Program-made: the position numbers and the translations under genes
NCBI RefSeq assembly: GCF_014859355.1
Contig: NZ_JACUUJ010000001.1
Coordinates: forward strand, 1-64,000
Reading direction: 5' to 3'
DNA length: 64,000 bases
Source of the DNA: Yoonia sp.
GTDB lineage: Bacteria; Pseudomonadota; Alphaproteobacteria; Rhodobacterales; Rhodobacteraceae
Notes under the pieces: generated by a model
The model's database searches: none
Seen by the model: only the letters and a program-made list of their open reading frames with translations
What the model was told of the DNA's origin: nothing
Shown: positions 22,016 through 27,255 of the stretch, in pieces
Layout of the letters: every line of letters starts with the position of its first letter
How positions within the stretch are numbered: position 1 is the stretch's first letter

Positions 22016-22046
22016 TGTGATCACGCAATTTTTTTCTGTGATCACA
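22016..22046. promoter_or_regulatory. Tandem palindromic operators upstream of sdhC, 21 bp apart
   Basis: TGTGATCACG at 22016-22025 and TGTGATCACA at 22037-22046, with start-to-start spacing of exactly 21 bases, so both face the same side of the helix. The outer flanks (TTT before, AAA after) make the whole unit roughly symmetric. The same pair with the same spacing stands before sucC. It is not a CRP site, which would need TGTGA-N6-TCACA. Confidence 0.72.
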
Positions 22047-22061
22047 AACAATCCAAACGCT

Positions 22062-23087
22062 TTAAGTCGGGATTAGCGCCCAATAGTCCAGATCAAGCAG
22101 GACATCGGGATGATATTTCCCGTCATCACCGCGCAACACACCTGCCGCGCCTTTGGTCGCCACCAGCCGTAGCCGGATCGCGCCGACACCCGGTGTGGTT
22201 GTTTCGGCCATATCCAGCACCTCGGACCACGCGCGCACCGTATCGCCTGCGAAACAGGGGTTCGCATGGGCACCACCGTTCAGCGCCACGATCATCTGCG
22301 CATTGGCCAACCCGTTGAACGACAATGCCCGCGCCAGCGAAATGACATGGCCGCCATAGATCAGCCGTTTCCCATCCGCGCGCTGCGTCGCGTCAAAATG
22401 CACCTTGGCGGTGTTTTGCCACAGGCGGGTTGCCAGCATATGTTCGGCCTCTTCGACCGTCACGCCATCCACGTGGTCAATAACCTCGCCCACACCGTAA
22501 TTGATCAACCGATGCGATTCGCCCGCCTGCGCAAAGTCATAATCAGTAAATTGCAGCCCCTGTGGCACCACCAGATCGCCCGCCGCCACAACCGCTGGCA
22601 GAACTGGGATCACTGGCTCGGGTGCGGGGCCGTCGCCACGTTTGCGCACCATCACCCAGCGGACATAGCGCAACACATCCTCGCCCCGCTGATTGCGGCC
22701 CGTGGTGCGCACCCAGACAACCCCGGATTTGCCGTTTGAATTCTGCTTAACCCCGATCACCTGCGATTGGCTGGACAGCGTATCACCCGGATACACAGGC
22801 GCCAGCCAGCGCCCGTCGGCATAGCCCAGGTTGGCCACCGCGTTCAGCGATATATCCGGCACCGTCTTGCCAAATACCGTATGAAAGGTGATCAGATCAT
22901 CGACGGGCGACGCAGGCAAACCGCAAGACCGCGCAAATTCGTCTGATGAATAAAGCGCTGTGCGCGCCGGATAAAGCGCATGGTAAAGCGCCCGTTCCCC
23001 GCCCGAAATGGTGCGCGGCACCGCATGGGTGATCACATCGCCAACGGCGTAGTCCTCGAAAAAGCGGCCCGCGTTGGTTTTTGTCAT
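22062..23087 (-). CDS. mch: Mesaconyl-CoA hydratase of the ethylmalonyl-CoA pathway
   Basis: MaoC-type double hot-dog hydratase of 341 residues. It converts mesaconyl-C1-CoA to beta-methylmalyl-CoA, a late step of the ethylmalonyl-CoA pathway for acetate assimilation. Seen: N-terminal GRFFEDYAVGDVITHAVPRTI, the hydratase region ARSCGLPASPVDDLITFHTVFGK, and the C-terminal half with YGGHVISLARALSFNGLAN. Length and gene neighbours (DUF1737, NnrU, mcl2) match the arrangement in Rhodobacter. ATG 23087 overlaps the stop of the DUF1737 gene (ATGA). The operon points directly at sdhC 183 bases downstream. Confidence 0.92.
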   Translation of the reverse strand: MTKTNAGRFFEDYAVGDVITHAVPRTISGGERALYHALYPARTALYSSDEFARSCGLPASPVDDLITFHTVFGKTVPDISLNAVANLGYADGRWLAPVYPGDTLSSQSQVIGVKQNSNGKSGVVWVRTTGRNQRGEDVLRYVRWVMVRKRGDGPAPEPVIPVLPAVVAAGDLVVPQGLQFTDYDFAQAGESHRLINYGVGEVIDHVDGVTVEEAEHMLATRLWQNTAKVHFDATQRADGKRLIYGGHVISLARALSFNGLANAQMIVALNGGAHANPCFAGDTVRAWSEVLDMAETTTPGVGAIRLRLVATKGAAGVLRGDDGKYHPDVLLDLDYWALIPT

Positions 23088-23287
23088 TGCCGGCCCAGCT
23101 TCATGTCGGGGGAATAGGGCGTGTCGATGTCTTTGGTCACGGCCTGCCCGCAGCGCATGACGCCATTGGCCTGATCAAAGGCATAGGTCGGGTTGCCATA
23201 AAGCTCCCACCCCTTTGACAGCGCGTCTGACACCTTGTGGCAGAACGCCGATGTATCGTCTTCGGTCAACATACGGTAGATTTTCAT
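23084..23287 (-). CDS. DUF1737 domain small protein
   Basis: 67 residues: MKIYRMLTEDDTSAFCHKV followed by SKGWELYGNP, the DUF1737 pattern of a small alpha/beta protein. An upstream in-frame start at 23350 lies inside the NnrU gene and is rejected in favour of the conserved MKIYR start. Overlaps mch by ATGA and starts 4 bases after the NnrU stop. The function of DUF1737 is unknown; its place between mcl2 and mch is a recurrent feature of the cluster as I recall it. Confidence 0.85.
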   Translation of the reverse strand: MKIYRMLTEDDTSAFCHKVSDALSKGWELYGNPTYAFDQANGVMRCGQAVTKDIDTPYSPDMKLGRQ

Positions 23288-23291
23288 GGGA

Positions 23292-23837
23292 TCATCCAAA
23301 CGGGTTATAGCCAAGCCAGATGTGCACCACAGACACCACCCCAAAGGCAACGATCGTCGCCACGATGGCGGTGATTTCCTTGCGGATCGGCACCATATGG
23401 GGCGGGGTTTGGCGTGGCTCTGTGCGGTTGATCAGCGCCACCTCGGACCCTGCCCAGACCAGCAGACCGCCAAACAGCACAAAAGATGCGGTATCGCCGT
23501 TCACCAGCAGGTGCCCAACCGCCCACAGTTTGACCGCGGTCAGTTGCGGGTGGCGGACATATTGGGTGATCCGCGCCTTTGATCCGCTGGCAGCGAACAG
23601 GTAGAACGCAAGCAACATCAACAGGTTGTTGATTCCCGTCATCGCTGGTGTCCGGCCCCAATAGAATGTCGTGTCGGCCCAGCGATAGCCCAGCACCATT
23701 AGCACCAGCCCGGCCATCGCCCCGATGGTCACGATCATCTTGCCTTGCTCACCCATCGACGCACGATGCGCAGGTGCCAGTCGTTTCCAGAAATGAACGG
23801 CTGACCACAGGATCAGACCAAGAATAAGTAGTGTCAT
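23292..23837 (-). CDS. NnrU-family integral membrane protein
   Basis: 181 residues with five or six hydrophobic segments and the NnrU-type stretch ITQYVRHPQLTAVKLWAVGHLLVNGD (the histidine-rich HPQ...GHLLVNGD is conserved in the family). NnrU proteins were named from denitrification clusters, but no nitrogen-oxide gene is present here, so the name is only a family label. Start overlaps the mcl2 stop (ATGA), so it is translated with the ethylmalonyl-CoA genes. Confidence 0.85.
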   Translation of the reverse strand: MTLLILGLILWSAVHFWKRLAPAHRASMGEQGKMIVTIGAMAGLVLMVLGYRWADTTFYWGRTPAMTGINNLLMLLAFYLFAASGSKARITQYVRHPQLTAVKLWAVGHLLVNGDTASFVLFGGLLVWAGSEVALINRTEPRQTPPHMVPIRKEITAIVATIVAFGVVSVVHIWLGYNPFG

Positions 23838-25984: not shown

Positions 25985-26142
25985 ATCACGCTCCGCCGGT
26001 GCGACACCACTCTGCCTGATTACTGTGCTTGCGCAATCATGACCATGGCGAAATATGTGATGCCGCAGCGCAGCACCCTTGCCAGCGGCCCTTCAAAGGC
26101 TTACCCCGTCGCCTAAATCCAAACCACAAAGGATCTATTTTC

Positions 26143-27105
26143 ATGGCCAGACCCAAGATTGCCCTTATCGGCGCCGGACAAATCGGCGGCACGCTCGCGC
26201 ACCTCGCCGCTGTAAAAGAACTCGGCGATGTTGTGCTTTTCGACATTGCCGAAGGTATCCCCCAAGGCAAGGCACTTGATATAGCCGAATCCGGCCCTGC
26301 CGCCAAATTCGACGGTAGCTTCAAAGGGACAAACGATTACGCCGATATCGCAGGTGCCGATGTTTGCATCGTGACCGCCGGTGTGGCACGCAAGCCCGGC
26401 ATGTCGCGTGATGACCTGTTGGGGATCAACCTCAAGGTCATGAAATCCGTTGGCGAAGGCATCGCGGCACATGCGCCAAACGCTTTTGTCATCTGCATTA
26501 CCAACCCGCTGGATGCGATGGTCTGGGCGCTGCGCGAATTTTCCGGGCTACCGCACAATATGGTCTGCGGCATGGCAGGTGTGCTGGACAGTGCACGTTT
26601 CCGGCATTTCCTTGCGGACGAATTCGAAGTCTCCATGCGTGACGTGACGGCCTTTGTTCTGGGCGGCCACGGCGATACGATGGTGCCCCTGACCCGCTAT
26701 TCCACGGTGGGTGGCATCCCTCTGCCTGATCTGGTGGATATGGGTTGGACCACGCAAGACAAACTGGACGCGATCGTGCAGCGGACCCGTGACGGTGGCG
26801 CTGAAATCGTCGGCCTGCTGAAAACCGGTTCCGCCTTTTATGCGCCTGCCACATCGGCGATCGAAATGGCAGAGGCCTATCTGAAAGACCAGAAACGCCT
26901 TTTGCCCTGTGCGGCACATGTTGACGGCGCATACGGGCTTGACGGTTTCTATGTTGGCGTGCCCACCATCATCGGCGAAGGCGGCGTTGAACGCGTGGTC
27001 GAGATCAAGATGAACAAAGCTGAACAGGCCATGTTCGACAAATCTGTCGAGGCGGTCAAAGGTCTGGTCGCGGCGTGCAAGGCGATCGACAGCAGCCTTG
27101 CCTGA
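26143..27105 (+). CDS. mdh: Malate dehydrogenase
   Basis: NAD-dependent malate dehydrogenase of the LDH-like class, 320 residues. [14 protein letters not shown] is the Rossmann loop at residues 7-20; [21 protein letters not shown] holds the mobile loop with the substrate arginine; [10 protein letters not shown] near 178 has the catalytic histidine. Start ATG 26143 has AAAGGA upstream; a start 38 codons earlier is rejected. It begins the mdh-sucCDAB-lpd series, but a terminator after it suggests its own transcript. It oxidises the malate made by Mcl2 and by fumarase. Confidence 0.97.
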
Positions 27106-27125
27106 TAACCTGGGCACTGAATAGC

Positions 27126-27154
27126 AAAGGGTCGCCCAAGGGCGACCCTTTTTC
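27126..27154 (+). terminator. Rho-independent terminator after mdh
   Basis: Stem AAAGGGTCGCCC (27126-27137) and GGGCGACCCTTT (27140-27151) with a tight loop, followed by a T-run ending at 27153. Lies 21 bases after the mdh stop. Confidence 0.92.
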
Positions 27155-27224
27155 ATTTTAGCCATCTACAATCCCACCCCGCGAATCTCTTGAAATGATC
27201 GGCGGCGGCTGCGTTTGGAAATTT

Positions 27225-27255
27225 TGTGATCACAGTATAAAAACCTGTGATCACA
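27225..27255. promoter_or_regulatory. Tandem palindromic operators upstream of sucC, 21 bp apart
   Basis: TGTGATCACA at 27225-27234 and again at 27246-27255, with start-to-start spacing of exactly 21 bases, 99 bases before the sucC ATG. Flanks are TTT on the left and AA on the right, as at sdhC. Identity in core, spacing and flanks with the sdhC pair argues for a shared regulator of the TCA operons. The GT-N4-AC core would fit a GntR-family protein. Confidence 0.75.

Follow-up and report, generated by a model that had tools for sequence, protein, structure and literature searches.

The AkgR (RSP_0981) regulon of Rhodobacter sphaeroides was reportedly described by Imam, Noguera and Donohue in 2015, RSP_0981 and AkgR being taken here to be the same protein. 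The accessible part of the published record gives GTGATCAC as a site of AkgR, an R. sphaeroides activator belonging to the GntR family, and the GntR-family protein RSP_0981 is predicted, in the portion of the source available, to control succinyl-CoA synthetase, succinate dehydrogenase and the 2-oxoglutarate dehydrogenase complex (PMC4344238). On the same partial sources, the regulator, its motif and its targets are already known. Four features described below, namely the conservation of the spacing, the displacement by whole turns, the series of A/T tracts and the operator at akgR, were not found in a literature search whose scope did not extend to the main CceR/AkgR paper, and some of the geometry and the akgR operator may already be in print.

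Operator pairs and regulator in the Yoonia window

The window, i.e. the whole 64,000-nucleotide stretch of Yoonia sp. DNA analysed in this work (contig NZ_JACUUJ010000001.1), had been described in an earlier note as containing two TGTGATCAC pairs in front of operons on opposite strands, and exact copies were indeed recovered at 22016, 22037, 27225 and 27246. The GTGATCAC core starts at 22017 and 22038 before sdhC and at 27226 and 27247 before sucC, with a spacing of 21 bp in each pair. The predicted distal and near (proximal) AkgR operators of sdhC occupy positions 22038 to 22045 and 22017 to 22024, respectively, and those of sucC positions 27226 to 27233 and 27247 to 27254, all four being exact copies. 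The TTT and AAA flanks are present on the outer sides of each pair (before the first and after the second copy), but not around every copy.

The sdh operon is located on the minus strand (17838 to 21878) and comprises sdhC (21495 to 21878), sdhD (21114 to 21485), sdhA (19288 to 21093) and sdhB (17838 to 18617), while the suc region on the plus strand (27354 to 35583) comprises sucC (27354 to 28547), sucD (28603 to 29484), sucA (29559 to 32519), sucB (32516 to 33721) and lpd (34195 to 35583). The names sdhC and sucC agree with Pfam and NCBIfam matches, the remaining genes being named from their translations. All three AkgR-regulon targets (sdh, sucCD and the genes of 2-oxoglutarate dehydrogenase) are represented, in that sdhC and sucC are preceded by pairs and sucCD is followed, on its own strand, by sucA, sucB and lpd. 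Two small open frames (18663 to 19004 and 18956 to 19288, minus strand), one of them lipoprotein-like by reading, are found between sdhA and sdhB. A mesaconyl-CoA hydratase-like gene (22062 to 23087) and an HpcH/HpaI lyase-like gene (23834 to 24730), both on the minus strand, separate sdh from suc, so that genes of acyl-CoA and TCA metabolism alternate here.

Within the 64-kb window there are eight GTGATCAC cores, for which the chance expectation is approximately 0.001 pairs at exactly 21 bp, and TGTGATCAC with at most one mismatch gives 38 matches as compared to 14.2 +/- 4.6 in shuffled sequences. The genome-wide scan for the 21-bp pair which the earlier note had proposed returned, from the 2.98-Mb genome, the sdhC and sucC places only, and the reversed control pattern had no match in the whole 2.98-Mb genome. 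Further TTTGTGATCACAAA places were sought across the genome with up to two mismatches; among the matches listed there were 13, four being the known copies, seven located inside open frames of more than 300 aa and two intergenic (L004 and L010). Since none of the nine additional places precedes a central-metabolism gene (by reading), they were rejected as regulon members and no targets were added.

The suggestion of a GntR-family regulator is supported, such a protein being the best candidate for the operator pair that sdhC and sucC have in common. The accompanying statement that no named regulator is known for this motif is not supported: the motif and its targets match those given for AkgR/RSP_0981 in the part of the R. 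sphaeroides literature accessible, and an AkgR ortholog is encoded approximately 9 kb from the sucC pair. This gene, akgR (36586 to 37236, minus strand), specifies a regulator with a GntR winged helix-turn-helix domain (PF00392, 50 bits) and an FCD domain (PF07729, 65.9 bits), both above cut-off, and is orthologous to the R. sphaeroides protein that occupies the RSP_0981 position. In a one-way search of genome G051, which was recognised as R. sphaeroides by its 100% match to the reaction-centre L protein, the best match of the window's AkgR is 75% identical and the next best 29%. In G051, the sdhC pair is 4.9 kb and the sucC pair 9.7 kb away from akgR, which is where RSP numbering puts RSP_0981, and both pairs of this genome have the 21-bp spacing. 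A D-H-H-H set of metal ligands is typical of many FCD domains; the residues N137, H141, H184 and D206 are invariant in 24 AkgR orthologs at similar spacing, two of the four letters differing from the D-H-H-H set. Among the best 80 of 486 akgR matches, the nearest named ones belong to Yoonia and Loktanella. We take this set to be the AkgR regulon of a Yoonia-like genome, in which activation would be exerted through the tandem, phase-locked pair and self-repression through a single site.

Conservation of the pair and its co-occurrence with AkgR

The family was sampled by 295 genomes representing 294 genera, a pair being defined as two exact copies with 0 to 30 nt between them. At least one exact pair is present in 267 of the 295 genomes, usually two per genome, while the reversed control occurs in 1 of 295, and chance scatter of the motif is thereby ruled out. 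The earlier note had made its proposal depend on the pairs being conserved in front of sdhC and sucC in related genomes, and they were found to be. The two-turn spacing is conserved as well: among the 75 pairs listed for 37 genomes (counted by eye), 65 are spaced at 21 bp, five at 20 and two at 18, with single pairs at 13, 27 and 31. In the regions fetched from 76 genomes and the window, 142 pairs were present (76 before sucC, 64 before sdhC, one before akgR and one unlabelled), of which 134 are at 21 bp, seven at 20 and one at 13, these regions having been chosen around listed pairs in a manner that left out the pairs of G199 and most pairs at spacings other than 20 or 21 bp. One 2.6-Mb family genome (G265) carries ten GTGATCAC pairs in place of the usual two, and its regulon may be expanded.

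AkgR was scored as present at a best E <= 1e-50, which is the case for 268 of the 295 genomes (counted by eye). Pair and AkgR are both present in 261 genomes and both absent from 21, with the pair only in six and AkgR only in seven (Fisher p = 4e-21, a value which is too small as kinship was ignored and the sequences are related). Three of the six genomes with a pair only are 73 to 77% complete; the other three (G019, G114 and G256) are 91 to 100% complete and stand against the link between pair and AkgR.

In the 28 genomes without a pair, sucC was sought and matched at E <= 1e-100 in 25, of which 22 were inspected and three weak ones left out. Two genomes with a strong AkgR match, G040 and G291, retain the sucC pair with one mismatch, and no pair was found at sucC of G281, which has a weaker AkgR match. 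In the 19 AkgR-less genomes the best sucC pair has five to seven mismatches in 17 cases, which equals background, four in G157 and three in G017. Outside the family, a pair at 20 or 21 bp was detected in 2 of 380 alphaproteobacterial genomes, G440 (region L231) being a pair-bearing genome of this kind, and AkgR at E <= 1e-40 was detected in 5 of 337 genomes, all five of which belong to the family.

Promoter distances, A/T tracts and the akgR promoter

At sdhC, the pair is followed by a conserved CGTGAC and subsequently by TA-rich sequence at -10 distance. In the window, the predicted -35 box GTGAC (21953 to 21957, minus strand) is located 59 nt after the near operator, and no clear -10 of sdhC was seen in the window's genome. 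When GTGAC was sought 40 to 110 nt after the near operator in 64 sdhC promoters taken regardless of spacing, its start was at 57 to 60 nt in 48 promoters, at 47 to 49 in three, at 68 to 69 in three and at 78 to 79 in two, and it was absent from eight; the eight promoters with GTGAC outside the 57 to 60 mode are in helical phase (p = 5e-5 versus a uniform spread, kinship ignored). A family-wide search for the pair-to-GTGAC pattern matched in 191 of the 295 genomes. Among the 150 rows listed, seven are off phase (44, 54, 54, 55, 63, 66 and 66 nt) and were rejected because all of them point the wrong way from the sdhC pair or belong to the sucC pair, and the in-phase G192 row (71 nt) was discarded as it also points the wrong way. 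The 142 rows left comprise 125 at 57 to 61 nt, eight at 47 to 48 and nine at 69 to 71, direction having been checked for the modal rows where the region was fetched, and one of the two G242 rows must be a chance match. In total, 80 sdhC promoters were checked, 16 of them fetched on account of the family-wide search. GTGAC is absent from nine of these 80 and is present in 71, at offsets of 47 to 49 (9), 57 to 61 (49), 68 to 71 (11) and 78 to 79 nt (2) and nowhere else. The 22 promoters off the 57 to 61 mode are shifted by approximately 10 to 11 or 20 nt, i.e. by whole helical turns.

For sucC, a -35-like box was placed at 43 to 45 nt in 55 of 76 promoters, at 32 to 34 in 11, at 54 to 56 in six and elsewhere in four, by a simple motif search which favours TTT tracts and is weaker than that for sdhC; on this weaker ground, the box positions suggest the same whole-turn arrangement. 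The window, L119 and L229 have the sucC box at 32 to 33 nt and the start codon at 100 to 102 nt, as opposed to a median of 110, and sucC of the window's genus, judged from these three genomes, seems to have lost one turn.

With the pair as anchor, A/T peaks are found on the promoter side at 40, 49/50, 60 and 70/71. The 10.5-bp phase resultant on this side is 0.91 for 74 sdhC and 0.90 for 71 sucC sequences, versus values of 0.27 (sdhC) and 0.32 (sucC) on the opposite side of the pair, where weak agreement is present as well (Rayleigh p = 0.005 and 0.0006, kinship ignored). The 10.5-bp power per sequence is 5.8 for sdhC and 4.0 for sucC, as compared to 1.7 for the other side and 1.4 for block shuffles, and when windows of equal size upstream of the start codons are compared, the highest values are 4.8 for sdhC and 3.5 for sucC, compared with 2.2 for mdh and 1.8 for mch. 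Measured from the -35 box in 71 promoters, the sdhC peaks are at -17, -27, -38 and -48, with more in the operator region, and these same peaks fall at approximately -52, -62, -73 and -83 relative to the predicted start, which are about the positions at which alpha C-terminal domains usually bind DNA. Many of these promoters (L116, L121, L124, L131 and others) carry a non-palindromic GCGCCAAAAAACCGCGCC-like string approximately 24 to 38 nt after the near sdhC operator, and GCGCTAAC-like strings are present in several; CceR was considered in this context and left out of the model.

Upstream of akgR, a candidate self-control operator, GCGATCAC (37247 to 37254, minus strand), differs from GTGATCAC by one mismatch, and the predicted -35 box TTGAC (37268 to 37272, minus strand), which overlaps the end of a YgjP-like gene, is located 18 nt upstream of it. 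Among the best 80 of 486 akgR matches, all from named relatives, an exact GTGATCAC occurs shortly before akgR in 65, the other 15 being without an exact copy, and TTGAC is located 18 nt upstream of the operator in 63 of the 65. Because of this distance the operator is placed over the predicted akgR -10, and this single site over the -10 suggests that AkgR represses its own gene. In the R. sphaeroides genome, TTGAC before akgR is present and the operator was not found there. In G187 (L133:650-670), two GTGATCAC copies 13 bp apart immediately follow TTGAC, so that the self-control site is arranged differently there.

Proposed mechanism and comparison with known systems

The reading preferred here, to which a probability of roughly 70% is assigned, is that the pairs are AkgR sites from which the lower TCA cycle would be activated from one helical face, with akgR limiting its own synthesis. 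AkgR would act as a GntR/FadR-type (FCD) activator that binds both pairs as two dimers, two helical turns apart on the same DNA face and well upstream of the core promoter, cooperative binding of these dimers being plausible. The near operator would be centred at approximately -98 for sdhC, -86 for most sucC promoters and -75 for sucC of this genus (estimates based on predicted -35 boxes). From there, AkgR would act on RNA polymerase across DNA whose A/T-rich minor grooves occur once per turn, those at sdhC (approximately -52, -62, -73 and -83) corresponding to the usual alpha C-terminal domain contacts. In this part of the family, AkgR would also restrict its own production through the single site over the predicted -10 of its gene. 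The pairs, their conservation, their link with AkgR, the whole-turn distances, the phased A/T tracts and the akgR operator are seen in the sequences themselves; binding, cooperativity, contact with RNA polymerase and self-repression are inferred. Counting against this reading are the near-complete genomes G019, G114 and G256 with a pair but no AkgR match at the threshold, G281, the nine sdhC promoters from which GTGAC is absent, the unclear sdhC -10 of the window, the weak phase agreement beyond the pair, and the lack of the akgR operator in R. sphaeroides and of an exact copy in 15 of 80 relatives. The odds appear evenly balanced for the more specific proposal of a family-wide phase-locked array, in which two dimers two turns apart and A/T minor grooves one turn apart up to the -35 would slide by whole turns only, sdhC and sucC differing by about one turn and sucC of this genus by one more, and in which the regulator's own gene would be shut off over the -10 in part of the family.

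An improbable alternative is that AkgR binds the pairs as a repressor of sdh and suc, both being released by an effector. Repressors are common in the GntR family and the akgR operator over the predicted -10 occupies a repressor position; however, the predicted -35 boxes follow the pairs at 46 to 59 nt, which places the pairs upstream of and off the core promoter, the operator-to-promoter spacing is conserved to whole turns, and the accessible part of the literature calls AkgR an activator. Slightly less probable still is that another GntR protein, or another type of regulator, binds the pairs and AkgR merely shares their phylogenetic distribution. The genome has 10 GntR-domain matches, co-occurrence was computed for AkgR alone, and six genomes have the pair without AkgR at E <= 1e-50, yet the same palindrome precedes akgR in 65 of the 80 loci (best 80 of 486), 17 of 19 AkgR-less genomes are without an above-background sucC pair, and G040 and G291, which have AkgR, keep a one-mismatch pair.

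A possibility of appreciable weight, although not the favoured one, concerns the contact step only and is compatible with AkgR: the A/T tracts may represent static bending or wrapping by a nucleoid protein rather than alpha C-terminal contacts, with AkgR shaping the loop. The tracts fill the entire distance between operator and promoter and bending would need identical phasing; the sdhC peaks, on the other hand, fit the usual alpha C-terminal positions, with which bending would still be compatible.

Under the preferred reading of AkgR-mediated activation, a motif that looked orphan gains a named regulator and a paired operator found in 267 of 295 family genomes. Rhodobacteraceae are abundant among the heterotrophs of the sea, and the switch controlling the route from succinyl-CoA to fumarate would hence be a common one. 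If the array is phase-locked, activation should be lost when half a turn is inserted between operator and -35 and should survive the insertion of a whole turn; if true, hundreds of genera would be running a natural spacing experiment on an activator array that sits upstream of the classic class I positions.

The window resembles the AkgR regulon of R. sphaeroides in its motif, its target operons (as far as the accessible text describes them), its orthologous regulator and its 21-bp pairs, and differs from it at akgR, which is without the operator in R. sphaeroides, whereas 65 of 80 relatives have an exact copy over the predicted -10 and the window a one-mismatch copy. PS417_07240 of the Pseudomonas simiae deoxyribonate cluster, according to the part of its description available, is likewise GntR-like with a GTGATCAC palindrome before its own gene, but is 32% identical to AkgR and has other targets. 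Also close are class I activators (e.g. CRP), which act from upstream sites in helical phase, the classic site being at -61.5, and UP-element promoters. The AkgR array shares with these systems the placement of activator sites upstream of the -35 in helical phase and the phased A/T subsites; unlike class I activators, it would consist of two tandem dimers at an estimated -75 to -119, mostly beyond -61.5, with a series of four A/T tracts before the -35.
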